DNA of 64,000 bases, taken from contig QBYD01000003.1 of NCBI GenBank assembly GCA_003282975.1, positions 1 to 64,000 of the forward strand, given 5' to 3'. Positions within the stretch are counted from its first letter, which is position 1, and each line of letters opens with the position of its first letter. This stretch comes from Pelagibacteraceae bacterium AG-325-C10. GTDB taxonomy: Bacteria; Pseudomonadota; Alphaproteobacteria; Pelagibacterales; Pelagibacteraceae. A model generated the notes under the pieces. That model was given only the letters and a program-made list of their open reading frames with translations. It had not been told where the DNA came from and did no database searches. The translations under genes were made by a program, and so were the position numbers. Positions 1,535 to 48,241 of this stretch are shown here, in pieces.

Positions 1535-1790
1535 TGGTTTTCCAACTACGACGATAAACGAATTTCGTAATAACCATTGCGGACGTGGGGGCAGTACCCA
1601 CCACCTCCACCATTACAACTTATGGGGGTGAACTAGATTCGACGGATGACTAAAGGCTATTCTTTCGTTCGGGATTGTTCCACCGTGACGGGCTAATTTA
1701 TAATTGCTAACGAAAGTTACGCACTTGCTGCTTAATTAACTTTGTTAATTAAGTAGACGGGGTCCGGGGCACCTGGCAACAGAACGCCCC
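1535..1790 (+). ncRNA. ssrA: Circularly permuted (two-piece, alphaproteobacterial type) tmRNA: acceptor piece ending CCA at 1612, short intervening segment 1613-1623, coding piece from 1624
   Basis: Acceptor piece GGACGTGGGGGCAGTACCCACCACCTCCACCA (ends 1612). Coding piece GGGGGTGAACTAGATTCGACGG from 1624 pairs 7 bp with CACCTCC. Tag frame GCT AAC GAA AGT TAC GCA CTT GCT GCT TAA (1706-1735) = ANESYALAA*. Tail GGGGCACCTGGCAACAGAACGCCCC. Outer ends are approximate. Confidence 0.9.
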
Positions 1791-1868
1791 CTCTCATTTG
1801 TTAATTTAGTTTGCAGTATCAATGTTATTTTAAAAATACAACCGAAGGATTCGGACTGTGTTCGGAAT

Positions 1869-1937
1869 TTAATAACCCATTATCATCAACATAATAATTA
1901 AACCAATTATAAGTGCCCAGTATCCAAAATTTTCCAT
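1869..1937 (-). CDS. Putative 22-aa single-pass membrane peptide MENFGYWALIIGLIIMLMIMGY
   Basis: Complete ATG-to-TAA frame with a strongly hydrophobic segment, between tmRNA and the 1948 ORF; not in the ORF track. Confidence 0.35.
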   Translation of the reverse strand: MENFGYWALIIGLIIMLMIMGY

Positions 1938-1947
1938 TCAAATTTTT

Positions 1948-2409
1948 TTATTTTTTCTTTTTTTTAAATCCTTTAAACAAATAAAATTGAAGACCCATTG
2001 GTGAACTTTTTGCTCCATCTTTCATAAAATCCATTAAATCTTGACCTCCAGTTTTAACTCCTTCTTTAAATTTCTTTTTAGTTTGTAAATCTGGAAATTT
2101 ATGACAAATATCGTTTCCATGTTTTTCACCATAATAAGCTTTGAATATTCTTATAGTAACTATCATCCACGCATTTTTACTTTCTCTCAATTCTGAAACT
2201 TGAAAGTAAAAATCTATAAAACCATACAGGTATCCATATATCCATTCATCTTTTGGCAAAGCATTTTTTGGTGCTAATGATCCTGAGGTCATTGTTGATT
2301 GAACTTGCAAAATGCTCATTAACCAATCATACGATTTTTCAATTTTTTCATCAAAATCTCTGCTTTGTGATGTTTTATCTTTTTTTTTAAACCAATCAAA
2401 AAAACTCAT
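1948..2409 (-). CDS. Hypothetical protein (153 aa), lysine-rich ends
   Basis: Complete ORF, no family recognised; lies between two copies of the tmRNA-tail repeat. Confidence 0.7.
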   Translation of the reverse strand: MSFFDWFKKKDKTSQSRDFDEKIEKSYDWLMSILQVQSTMTSGSLAPKNALPKDEWIYGYLYGFIDFYFQVSELRESKNAWMIVTIRIFKAYYGEKHGNDICHKFPDLQTKKKFKEGVKTGGQDLMDFMKDGAKSSPMGLQFYLFKGFKKKKK

Positions 2410-2541
2410 GATCCAAGGTTAACAAATCGAGTAACTCATTACGAGTAGATTTTGACTCGGAATTGACTCGGAATTATTCTATAATTTGGTTAATTTAAAA
2501 ACCAAGGATTGTTGCAATATAAGGATTATTGAAACAAAGTT

Positions 2542-2567
2542 CGGGGCACCTGGCAACAGAACGCCCC
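2542..2567 (+). repeat. Second copy of tmRNA-tail element CGGGGCACCTGGCAACAGAACGCCCC
   Basis: 26/26 identical to 1765-1790 inside the tmRNA coding piece; GGGGC/GCCCC arms. Confidence 0.9.
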
Positions 2568-2571
2568 TTTT

Positions 2572-3429
2572 CTAATTGTAATAACCAATCTCCTTAAGAT
2601 ATTTCTTATTAACAATTGGTAGAAGATAATAGTCAGAATTATCAGATGGAAAATTTTCCCAAATTATATCTTTCCTCGCTTCTGGAGTGTAATAACACTG
2701 GTAGCAATGAAGTGGTGACCATTTTTTGCACTCCTTTTGTTTAAAATTTTTTTTTATTTGTAAGTCACACAATTTTTTTTCTTTCTCACTTAAATTTTCA
2801 TTATTTATTATAAATGAAAAAGAAATATGAGGGTCACCTTTACTATTACTTCCAGTTGTTCCTGAGTGACCAATTAAATCGCCTTTCTTAACCCACATTT
2901 TTTTTTTTATTATTTTGTCAGAATAACCTCCACAATAATTTGGATTTCTTTTGTACTTTTCAGTGCCAAATTCTAATGGTCTTTCACAATTTCCTTTACC
3001 AAAACCAGGTACAAAAGGTGTATCCATCAGATGATAAAATAATATCTGATTTTGATTTTTATCAACAAACATTAATTCAACATCATCGAAAATATAATCA
3101 ATACCCTGTTTCTTTTGGGTTTTGTTATAAATTCTGCTTCTTTGTTTTGCGCTCCTGTCTTTTGCATACAATAATTTCATATCAGTTACAGCAAACACTG
3201 GAGTTCCCCTTTTTACTAAAATAGAAGTTCCTCTTTTTAGTGGGTAACCTTTTGCTTTAGAGCATCTTGAGGAGTTTTTAAAAGCGATTGCGCCAGGACT
3301 ATCTATTTTTGCTCCATTAAAATTGCAAGGTAGTTTTTTATAGGTCTTATATTTAATTTTGGTCTCGGCAAACGAATTTGCTGTAAAAAAAGGAAATATT
3401 AAAATTATAATCCATAAAATTTTTCTCAT
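2572..3429 (-). CDS. M23 (LytM-like) peptidase-fold secreted protein, probably catalytically degenerate
   Basis: Signal peptide MRKILWIIILIFPFFTANSFA; M23-like KKGDLIGHSGTTGSNSKGDPHISFSF; metal-ligand motifs look incomplete. Confidence 0.65.
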   Translation of the reverse strand: MRKILWIIILIFPFFTANSFAETKIKYKTYKKLPCNFNGAKIDSPGAIAFKNSSRCSKAKGYPLKRGTSILVKRGTPVFAVTDMKLLYAKDRSAKQRSRIYNKTQKKQGIDYIFDDVELMFVDKNQNQILFYHLMDTPFVPGFGKGNCERPLEFGTEKYKRNPNYCGGYSDKIIKKKMWVKKGDLIGHSGTTGSNSKGDPHISFSFIINNENLSEKEKKLCDLQIKKNFKQKECKKWSPLHCYQCYYTPEARKDIIWENFPSDNSDYYLLPIVNKKYLKEIGYYN

Positions 3430-3598
3430 ACTAAATAATTATAGAAATATTATTAAAACAAATAAATACATTTATTTGTTTTAATAAATTGTAATATCAA
3501 TTTTAAAGGCAATTTCAGATTTTAGGTTACGATAAAAGAATAATTGCCCCCAATTTCAATGAAGTTTCAAAACAAGGTTTAGGACAAAAGTTAAAACT

Positions 3599-3622
3599 CT
3601 CAATGAAGTCCTCAATGAAGTC
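3599..3622. repeat. Tandem duplication of 12-mer CTCAATGAAGTC
   Basis: CTCAATGAAGTC CTCAATGAAGTC read directly; a further TCAATGAAGT lies just upstream. Confidence 0.9.
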
Positions 3623-3661
3623 TTTCAAAAAAGTATTATTTTCTGTTATAAACTGGTTTAA

Positions 3662-3681
3662 GGGGTAGAACAGAACGCCCC
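3662..3681 (+). repeat. Third, internally deleted copy of tmRNA-tail element (GGGG...AACAGAACGCCCC)
   Basis: Exact 13-nt AACAGAACGCCCC match preceded by GGGG, so the hairpin arms are kept. Confidence 0.65.
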
Positions 3682-3684
3682 TAA

Positions 3685-6348
3685 TTAATTTATTTTTTTT
3701 AGTTCTGCCTGTGCTGCAGCTAATCTTGCAATTGGGACTCTATATGGTGAACAAGAAACATAATTTAAACCTGCTTTGGAACAAAAATGAATACTCATAG
3801 GATCGCCACCATGTTCGCCACATATTCCTAATTTAAGTTTTTTATTTTGGCTTTTGCCTTTTTCAACTGCAATCTCAACTAAATCTGCAACACCCTCATC
3901 TATTGATATAAAAGGATCAATCGAAAATATCTTATTTTCTATATAATCATTTAAAAACTTTCCACTATCATCCCTGCTAATACCAAATGTTGTTTGGGTT
4001 AAATCATTGGTTCCAAAACTAAAAAACTCTGCATGTTTAGCAATTTCCTTTGCTTTAATTGCAGCTCTTGGTAATTCGATCATTGTTCCAACCATAAATT
4101 TAATTTTTACATTTTGTTTTTTTTTAACTTCGCTAGCAACTTTGATTACCAAATCTTTCATAATCTTAATTTCTGCTTCTGTAGAAACTAATGGAATCAT
4201 TATTTCTGGAAAGGCTGATTTAATTTTTTTCTTTTGTAGTTCTGCTAAAGCTTCAAAAATAGCTCTACACTGCATTTCATATATTTCTGGAAAAGATATA
4301 CCAAGTCTACATCCTCTATGACCCAACATAGGATTTTGCTCATGTAGTTCACTTATTCTTATTTCAATTTCCTCAACAGGTAAATTCACAACATTTGCAA
4401 CTTCATTAATTTCTTTATTTGTACGAGGTAAAAATTCATGAAGCGGAGGGTCAAGCAATCTAACAGTAACTGGAAGTCCACTCATAATCTTAAATATTTC
4501 TATAAAATCTTTTTTTTGATGAGGCAAAAGTTTATTAAGTGCTATTGATCTATCCTCTATAGTTTTTGATAAAATCATTTCTCTTACAGATAAAATTCTT
4601 TCTTCATCAAAAAACATATGTTCCGTTCTACAAAGGCCAATACCTTCTGCTCCAAAATTTTTGGCCGTTTTTGTATCCTTTGGTGTTTCTGAATTAGTTC
4701 TAATATTTAATTTTCTAAAACTATCAGCCCATGACATTAGCTTTGAAAAATCTCCTGAAATTTCTGGTTTAACTGTAGCAACGCTTCCCTCAATAATTCT
4801 ACCTGTTGAACCATCAATGGTGATAATATCACCTTCTTTTATTTCCATTGATGAAGTTGTAAAACTTTTATTTTCATAATTGATATCAATTTCACTAGAA
4901 CCTGAAACACATGGACGCCCCATGCCTCTTGCAACTACTGCTGCATGGCTTGTCATTCCTCCTCTTGCAGTTAAAATCCCTTTAGCTGCATGCATTCCTT
5001 GAATGTCTTCTGGGGAAGTTTCTACTCTTACTAAAATTGTGTCTTGCATAATTGCCGTTAATCTTTCGGCTTCCTCTGAGGTAAACACTACTTTACCACT
5101 TGCTGCCCCAGGTGATGCTGGTAGTCCATTTGCAATGACATTTATTGTATCTTTTTCATCTAAAGTAGGATGAAGTAAAGTATCTAGTGAATTGGGATCA
5201 ATTCTTAAAACAGCCTCTTTTTTTGAAATTAATTTTTCTTTTACCATATCAACTGCTATTTTTACTGCTGACTTAGCAGTTCTTTTTCCTGATCTTGTTT
5301 GAAGCATCCACAATTTTTTATTCTCAACTGTAAATTCAACGTCTTGCATATCTTTGTAATGTTTCTCTAACTTTTTTAAAATTTTATGAAGTTGTTTATA
5401 TACAGCTGGCATTACTTCCTCCATTGAGAGGGCTTTTACTTTTGCTTTTAATCTTGCCTTTTTAGTTATGTATTGAGGGGTTCTTGTACCAGCAACTACA
5501 TCTTCCCCTTGTGCATTAATTAAATATTCGCCATATATTTCATTTAAACCATCTGAAGGATTTCTAGTAAACACAACTCCAGTTGCGCAATCTTCTCCCA
5601 TGTTTCCAAAAACCATTGATTGAACGTTCACTGCCGTTCCCCATTCAGCTGGAATTTGATTTAATTTTCTATAAACTTTTGCTCTGTTACTTTCCCAAGA
5701 CAAAAATACTGCACTTATTGAACCTAACAATTGTTCATAAACATTTTGTGGAAAATCTTTTTTAGCTTTATCTTTAACAGTCTTTTTAAAATCTTTAATT
5801 AATCCATCCCAATCATCCTCATCAAGGTCAGTATCTAAAAGAACACCTTTAGTAAGTTTATAATTTTCAATTAATTCTTCAAAATGATAACCTTCAACTC
5901 CCATTACTACGTTGCCATACATTTGAATAAATCTTCTGTAGCTATCTTTTGCAAACCTTCCATTTGAAGTTTTTAAAGCTAATGCATTTACAGTTTTATC
6001 ATTTAAACCAAGGTTTAAAATTGTATCCATCATTCCTGGCATTGATACTCTAGCACCAGATCTCACAGATAAAAGTAAGGGATTTTTTAAATCTCCAAAT
6101 TTTTTTCCAACTTCTTTTTCAATTATTTGTAACTCTTTTTTTACCTGATTAATTAGATTTTGATTTAATTTTTTTTTATCTTTATAAAAAATTTCACAAA
6201 CTTTTGTCGAAATTGTAAATCCAGGGGGGACTGGAAGACCCATTTTTCCCATTTCAGAAAGGTTTGCTCCTTTCCCACCTAAAAAATTTTTGGGATTTCT
6301 TATTTTCTTACTATCTTTAGAATTAAAATTTAAAATAAGTTTTTTCAT
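3685..6348 (-). CDS. ppdK: Pyruvate, phosphate dikinase
   Basis: GGKGANLSEMGKMGLPVPPGFTIST N-terminus; GGMTSHAAVVARGMGRPCVSG phosphohistidine motif. Confidence 0.97.
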   Translation of the reverse strand: MKKLILNFNSKDSKKIRNPKNFLGGKGANLSEMGKMGLPVPPGFTISTKVCEIFYKDKKKLNQNLINQVKKELQIIEKEVGKKFGDLKNPLLLSVRSGARVSMPGMMDTILNLGLNDKTVNALALKTSNGRFAKDSYRRFIQMYGNVVMGVEGYHFEELIENYKLTKGVLLDTDLDEDDWDGLIKDFKKTVKDKAKKDFPQNVYEQLLGSISAVFLSWESNRAKVYRKLNQIPAEWGTAVNVQSMVFGNMGEDCATGVVFTRNPSDGLNEIYGEYLINAQGEDVVAGTRTPQYITKKARLKAKVKALSMEEVMPAVYKQLHKILKKLEKHYKDMQDVEFTVENKKLWMLQTRSGKRTAKSAVKIAVDMVKEKLISKKEAVLRIDPNSLDTLLHPTLDEKDTINVIANGLPASPGAASGKVVFTSEEAERLTAIMQDTILVRVETSPEDIQGMHAAKGILTARGGMTSHAAVVARGMGRPCVSGSSEIDINYENKSFTTSSMEIKEGDIITIDGSTGRIIEGSVATVKPEISGDFSKLMSWADSFRKLNIRTNSETPKDTKTAKNFGAEGIGLCRTEHMFFDEERILSVREMILSKTIEDRSIALNKLLPHQKKDFIEIFKIMSGLPVTVRLLDPPLHEFLPRTNKEINEVANVVNLPVEEIEIRISELHEQNPMLGHRGCRLGISFPEIYEMQCRAIFEALAELQKKKIKSAFPEIMIPLVSTEAEIKIMKDLVIKVASEVKKKQNVKIKFMVGTMIELPRAAIKAKEIAKHAEFFSFGTNDLTQTTFGISRDDSGKFLNDYIENKIFSIDPFISIDEGVADLVEIAVEKGKSQNKKLKLGICGEHGGDPMSIHFCSKAGLNYVSCSPYRVPIARLAAAQAELKKIN

Positions 6349-48125: not shown

Positions 48126-48236
48126 TTACAGTAAGAATATTGCCATTAAAACTAAAACACCAATGACTGCGACTGTTCCCCACAACACAAATTTTGTAAA
48201 ATTGTTCCAGGTATTTTTATGGTCTTCATTATCCAT
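48126..48236 (-). CDS. aa3-type cytochrome c oxidase subunit IV-like small protein (36 aa)
   Basis: MDNEDHKNTWNNFTKFVLWGTVAVIGVLVLMAIFLL; ATG to TAA; not in ORF track. Confidence 0.75.
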   Translation of the reverse strand: MDNEDHKNTWNNFTKFVLWGTVAVIGVLVLMAIFLL

Positions 48237-48241
48237 AAAAA

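Follow-up and report, generated by a model that had tools for sequence, protein, structure and literature searches.

The DNA analyzed here, a window of 64,000 nucleotides from Pelagibacteraceae bacterium AG-325-C10 (contig QBYD01000003.1; genome G000), carries near its left end a permuted tmRNA gene, ssrA (positions 1495–1794, + strand; Rfam RF01849, 223.9 bits), which ARAGORN placed at 1518–1826 with the tag ANESYALAA. The conserved left neighbor is thyX (543–1613, − strand; Pfam Thy1, 1.2e-55). As listed, the thyX reading frame overlaps the tmRNA and its true start is probably near 1490, in agreement with the misannotated thyX start described at the same locus in 'Ca. P. ubique' (PMC2704228). 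The conserved right neighbor is ppdK (3685–6348, − strand; identified by Pfam). Two genes, both on the − strand, lie between ssrA and ppdK: one at 1948–2409, whose 153-aa product had no Pfam or PHROG match, and one at 2572–3429, encoding a secreted M23-like peptidase of 285 aa (Pfam PF01551, 1.2e-07). A search against phage records returned no match for either product. Elsewhere in the window, the pntA sRNA motif of SAR11 (48179–48240; RF01810, 94 bits) fits a SAR11 origin.

The first-pass annotation had reported that a piece of the tmRNA tail recurs around these two genes, and our analysis bore this out. An exact 26-mer is found at 1765–1790 and 2542–2567, where dinucleotide shuffles expect 0.00 such repeats, and a third, shortened copy, GGGGTAGAACAGAACGCCCC, occupies 3662–3681. 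The three copies share a 13-mer core, AACAGAACGCCCC (1778–1790, 2555–2567 and 3669–3681), for which shuffled versions of the window gave an expectation of 0.01 and in no case three copies. All three cores are in the same orientation on the + strand; copy 2 lies 4 nt from the stop codon of the M23-like gene and copy 3 lies 3 nt from that of ppdK. Rfam and ARAGORN both identified copy 1 as the tail hairpin of the tmRNA coding piece, and its RNA folds into a GGGGC/GCCCC stem enclosing an inner CUG-GCAA-CAG. In the two ssrA loci that were read from the sister family f2, the tail occurs once and has the sequence GGGAGGCACCGGGCAACAGAAGTCTCCC; the stem is changed on both sides with the loop retained, as expected for a functional RNA element.

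The 25-mer matched at least 120 genome-contig stretches, and the listed titles were all Pelagibacteraceae or other SAR11. The exact core is present in 210 of 250 genomes of the window's genus and in all 37 of the near-complete ones; approximately 105 of the 250 hold two or more cores, with a maximum of seven (table counted by hand), and a control pattern was nearly absent. Core copies often form same-strand arrays of 2–7 with spacings of about 0.1 to 3.4 kb, in a sample of loci that was drawn by exact core and is biased towards arrays with exact cores. Arrays are also present in other Pelagibacteraceae genera (L362, L364 and L365). The left halves of the cores fall into about eight recurring families and the right half is nearly invariant, which would be explained if the latter is held constant by its role in completing the tmRNA hairpin. 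The full hairpin was also observed directly past the stop codons of the core genes pnp (L013, L029, L178 and L206) and rnhA (L024, L035, L186, L194 and L203) in several species.

Gene maps of 36 loci revealed that the interval past ssrA is either empty or holds different genes. A comparison of this interval across SAR11 genomes had been proposed in the first-pass annotation, and it yielded empty, one-cassette and multi-cassette versions with clean junctions; presence/absence variation is strong, and with about 1–7 exact cores per genome the repeat is not scattered in the manner of an ordinary terminator. The empty version is represented by genome G024, which lacks both of the window's genes: window positions 1583–1792 and 3688 onward adjoin there, with ppdK directly after ssrA, and the window flanks, joined at the core, gave one continuous alignment of 438 columns. 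Another candidate empty site, in G036 (L027), was rejected upon finding a 129-bp gene-less cassette there. At several filled sites, a decayed core was observed beside the conserved neighbor, namely fabI (G019), ahpC (G031) and ppdK (G022 and G036); an old end displaced outward is the usual outcome of an integration that substitutes the terminal part of an RNA gene.

The segments between cores also recur away from their flanks. A 685-bp cassette is common to G025 and G090 at 99.6% identity, and is found again, at 99.0% over 685 bp, at the pnp 3′ end of G019; G019 and G014 share another of 342 bp (96.8%), and other such clusters exist, the flanking DNA being unrelated on both sides. Near-identical cassettes occur in different species at ssrA, at pnp and at other gene 3′ ends. 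The M23 cassette of the window has a counterpart in G034 that matches it at 95.9% over 871 bp; the DNA to the left of this counterpart is unrelated. The right ends of these two cassettes differ, being of type IV in the window and type II in G034, while the cargo is common, which indicates that ends and cargo can be reshuffled. The three repeats of the window are attachment-site cores bounding two single-gene cassettes between ssrA and ppdK, and, as judged by comparison of genomes, integration at the core is site-specific. The earlier suggestion, that insertions have stacked at a permuted tmRNA by recombining at its tail hairpin, is thus supported by the junctions, the contexts and the integrase of G266 described below. 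Its alternative, a mobile terminator, is not needed to account for mobility, though the hairpin may additionally end transcripts.

In the window, hairpin copy 1 constitutes attL of cassette 1 (K102; 1791–2554, 777 bp core to core), a single-gene, integrase-less unit. Arm-type-like repeat pairs were assigned near its left end (ATTCGGACTGTGTTCGGA, 1849–1866), based on end-sharing statistics computed over the whole cassette set, and near its right end (GACTCGGAATTGACTCGGAATT, 2454–2475), based on the statistics of the 12-bp period. Copy 2, with a left arm of the 'caaagttCGGGGCACCTGGC' family (type I), forms the junction to cassette 2 (K103; 2568–3668, 1114 bp core to core), whose right-end arm region (3554–3622) comprises TTTCAATGAAGTTTC at 3554–3568 and a tandem pair, CTCAATGAAGTCCTCAATGAAGTC, at 3599–3622. 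Copy 3 is the distal junction, attR; its left half comes from cassette 2 and is a type IV arm that was found in L198 too.

A total of 104 cassettes were delimited, ranging from 128 to 3449 bp with a median of 807 bp. Open reading frames of at least 70 aa lie mostly opposite to the hairpin strand (100 versus 27 on the same strand), and 14 of the 104 cassettes have no such frame. When the region 30–150 bp to the left of the core was inspected, a 6-mer repeated at 11–13 bp, the spacing peaking sharply at 12, was found in 60 of 94 right ends and in 47 of 455 control windows. Direct 9-mers common to both ends of a cassette are in excess (198 versus 66 permuted, maximum 122), an excess in the pooled set that may partly stem from families of related ends; inverted 9-mers common to both ends showed no excess (49 versus 54 permuted). 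End sharing varies among individual cassettes, types II and IV bearing repeats mainly at one end, and such repeat-bearing ends make up nearly the whole of two cassettes without a gene, 128 and 129 bp long. In one cassette group, the start codon is located 143–145 nt from the core. Among the repeat motifs named, besides the GGCGTC of the G266 type, are GACTCGG and CAATGAAG. The 12-bp-period repeats are probably arm sites, resembling those of integrases.

The cargo is varied and includes trypsin-like proteases, GIY-YIG and HNH nucleases, polysaccharide lyases, methyltransferases, an AhpC-like protein and many secreted or membrane proteins without a family; M23-like cargo is recurrent, with five members in the cassette set. 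Two stock signal peptides, with sequences near MKKLSLYIFLVLMW and MKKLLGIVVLGLL, recur at the start of many cargo proteins. Near-identical signal peptides were seen on unrelated cargo (window 1948–3429, L014, L203, L196, L202 and others), and the same M23 cargo bears different signal peptides in the window and in G034, as if 5′ ends and arms were swapped between cassettes as modules. A PADLOC search revealed no defense system among the cargo, in which a few proteins resemble defense components, mostly weakly. A distinct kind of very short cassette, of about 195–239 bp, was noted in L172, L199, L200 and L196; it holds a small membrane-protein frame on the hairpin strand that starts 7–8 nt past the core and ends about 10 nt before the next hairpin.

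No integrase was detected among the scanned cargo proteins, and a profile of resident and Xer-like recombinases found none in the array loci. The window itself is free of integrases, as had been noted from its sequence, and the only PF00589 match of its genome is located on another contig, C24. In a profile search of whole genomes (A2), phage-type integrases were found in 16 of 397 Pelagibacteraceae genomes and at ssrA in one of the 397, G266, which provides the site-linked tyrosine recombinase that the first-pass annotation had suggested looking for. The integrase gene of G266 starts 94 bp past the ssrA core and encodes 330 aa, with R198, H276, R279, H302 and Y311 read from the sequence; its closest solved relatives include the integrases of phages P2 and HP1. 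Between core and integrase lies TGGCGTCATGGTGGCGTCA, identical to an arm of an integrase-less G034 cassette. The element was read from its two ends, on two contigs: the other junction, near the start of contig C5, presents a primase-like gene, a degenerate arm pair, a full hairpin and then nadA. The primase-like protein has weak similarity to a phage primase (PHROG, 5e-07), and its gene had no match in phage records. When joined at the core, the G266 flanks matched the locus of G018, which is unoccupied, with no gap and at 96.3% over 2700 bases. This gap-free join, together with the cassette-type repeat pair, indicates that an integrase-bearing element inserts at exactly the cassette core. An integrase bearing the window cassettes' own repeats was sought and none was found.

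Other than that of G266, the integrases read in detail adjoin tRNA genes or tRNA-like repeats, and their elements (L404–L412, L382, L383 and L385) measure about 4–7 kb where the second repeat was found. Short repeated pairs comparable to that of G266, chosen by eye, stand just upstream of other SAR11 integrase genes (for example, TCCGGCACAAATCCGGCACA in L406 and GGTCGCACTATGGTCGCA in L407); when four loci were screened automatically for 7-mers recurring at exactly 12 bp, an integrase-adjoining pair was returned only in L385. In L409, the tRNA tail repeat also bounds a further segment, of 1389 bp, as though tRNAs too received cassettes that lack an integrase. As a rule, a SAR11 genome has a single tyrosine recombinase, which is Cre-like, resident and preceded by a dyad of its own. 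This protein, of about 317 aa, was seen among variable genes (G000:C24:6552-7061; L156, 3011–3928; L157–L169), directly preceded by the conserved dyad ATTACTATCGATAA-TTAATGG-TTATCAATAGTAAT or close variants, and possibly represents a single-recombinase system of the Xer/dif or lox kind.

In our judgment, the repeats very probably serve as attachment sites for integrative elements whose specific target is the tail hairpin of the permuted tmRNA. A phage-type tyrosine integrase would exchange strands within the shared core, at about AACAGAAC; the incoming element would swap the 3′ half of the hairpin for its own identical copy and push the old half to the far end. Since the replacement is identical, the tmRNA would stay intact. 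Most elements would be without an integrase; these are cassettes, of a median length of 0.8 kb and as a rule with a single gene opposite to the hairpin strand, that have arm-type-like repeats near one or both ends and stack into arrays. The best reading of the cassettes is that they are miniature integrase-less elements similar to cis-mobilizable elements (CIMEs); rare elements with an integrase, of which that of G266 with its integrase and primase-like gene is an example, probably mobilize them in trans. Excision as circles, mobilization in trans and transfer between cells would follow the same scheme. On a broader view, which we put forward tentatively and rate at somewhat under an even chance, SAR11 might maintain an integron-like gene-exchange economy without a cellular integrase dedicated to it. 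One landing core, found in the tmRNA tail hairpin and in its copies behind other core genes, would serve many single-gene cassettes; each cassette would bear arm sites for one of many integrase specificities, and would accordingly be recognized by, and travel with, a different rare satellite or phage integrase.

The repeated hairpin could instead be a transcription terminator or RNA 3′-end element that spread from the tmRNA among otherwise ordinary neighboring genes. Its stable fold, its frequent position a few nt from stop codons on one or both strands and its occurrence after pnp and rnhA all agree with this; however, only about 1–7 exact copies are present per genome, the segments between copies move whole and have clean ends, the very same site is occupied by an element with an integrase, and the 12-bp-period repeats would be left unexplained. 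The junction data already largely refute this account, which we consider very unlikely, even if the hairpin may also terminate transcripts. Homologous recombination between dispersed hairpin copies might likewise shuffle cassettes without a site-specific enzyme. SAR11 recombines often, some copies have 26 bp in common, and the M23 cassettes of the window and G034, with the same cargo and different right ends, do resemble products of homologous reshuffling. Many copies, though, share only the 13-bp right half, cassettes recur without flanking homology, and a phage-type integrase at the exact site would have to be a coincidence, which leaves this explanation little credibility.

That the resident Cre-like recombinase of Pelagibacteraceae moves the cassettes, as an integron-like cellular system, appears equally far-fetched. 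The protein is encoded in 14 of the 15 complete genomes examined, the arrays occur in the same family, and the sister family f2, in which no array was seen, has Xer-like recombinases instead. Nevertheless, no arm-binding domain is recognized in the resident protein, an unrelated AT-rich dyad of its own lies directly upstream, and the enzyme associated with both the site and repeats of the cassette type is the G266 integrase. On these grounds of site and domain, the resident recombinase was rejected as the mover.

Several known systems come close to the arrays. CIMEs and accretion arrays at the sites of integrative elements are made up of segments without an integrase, each between attachment sites and arranged in tandem at a single chromosomal site that integrase-bearing relatives use as well. 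The SAR11 cassettes are likewise flanked by direct-repeat attachment sites in one orientation, with a related integrase-bearing element at the same site (G266); they differ in being mostly single genes of about 0.1–3.4 kb that occur genus-wide, in their many types of arm-like repeats and in the rarity of integrase-bearing partners. Integron arrays and CALINs are made up of mostly single-gene units with a hairpin-forming recombination site between them and cargo mainly of unknown function, a layout that the SAR11 single-gene units and their hairpin-forming sites resemble. Unlike integrons, there is no IntI-type integrase: the resident recombinase, usually the sole PF00589 protein of the genome, scored 31 bits against a cut-off of 265 on the integron integrase model. 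Moreover, the SAR11 cargo is mostly opposite to the site, the invariant half-site is shared with a host RNA gene, and the cassettes, unlike attC sites, bear arm-like repeats. The lack of an inverted-sharing excess at the ends sets them apart from terminal-inverted-repeat transposons.

The ssrA islands of Dehalococcoides are in tandem, bordered by direct repeats of about 20 bp of ssrA, present or absent depending on the strain and in many cases devoid of integration genes; insertion is by a serine recombinase, into the T-loop at the 3′ end of ssrA, and the islands are larger with multi-gene cargo (PMC3146451). The SAR11 elements share the tandem order and the ssrA direct repeats, whereas their recombinase type is a tyrosine integrase, their target is the coding-piece tail hairpin of a permuted tmRNA, and a search for serine recombinases (PF00239) gave no match in 101 genomes at E 1e-8. 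Additive islands of streamlined aquatic bacteria have accessory genes surrounded by repeated copies of a tRNA end, and tycheposons have been described as elements of 4–200 kb with a tRNA border and a tyrosine recombinase (PMC10872708). In contrast to tycheposons, the SAR11 units are 128–3449 bp long, lie at tmRNA and protein genes and appear to be without a recombinase.

Tandem elements at ssrA (PMC3146451), repeats of tRNA ends around accessory genes (PMC10872708) and elements that lack an integrase and lie between attachment sites belong to known kinds. To our knowledge of the open-access literature, in which no publication describing SAR11 tmRNA cassette arrays was found, what is new is that cassettes, mostly of a single gene and apparently without an integrase, form arrays throughout a genus at the hairpin of the coding piece of a permuted tmRNA, that protein-coding genes provide additional sites, and that the arm-like repeats are of many types. 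SAR11, the most abundant bacteria in the ocean, are described as streamlined, yet their gene content varies. Across the genus, the cassettes provide accessory genes with a point of entry that is defined, recurrent and testable, one route of gene gain and loss in stripped-down genomes and an explanation for strain differences beside ssrA. Such genes can be found by a simple signature, AACAGAACGCCCC plus 12-bp-spaced repeats, and the arrays offer a natural case in which integrase-less elements far outnumber their putative helpers at one site.

A viral origin of the cassettes was also considered. IMG/VR scans with the core, arms and ends gave no element with both the site and cassette arms, and a scan with the G266 integrase gave only a 36%-identical fragment. 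The 16-mer matches in low-GC contigs proved to be complete permuted tmRNA genes with a different tag. Eight such IMG/VR contigs (L144–L147, L149, L150, L152 and L155), one of them of 242 kb, carry a complete permuted tmRNA, either phage-encoded or part of a host flank, with the identical tail hairpin and the tag ADENLALAA or a longer form of it.
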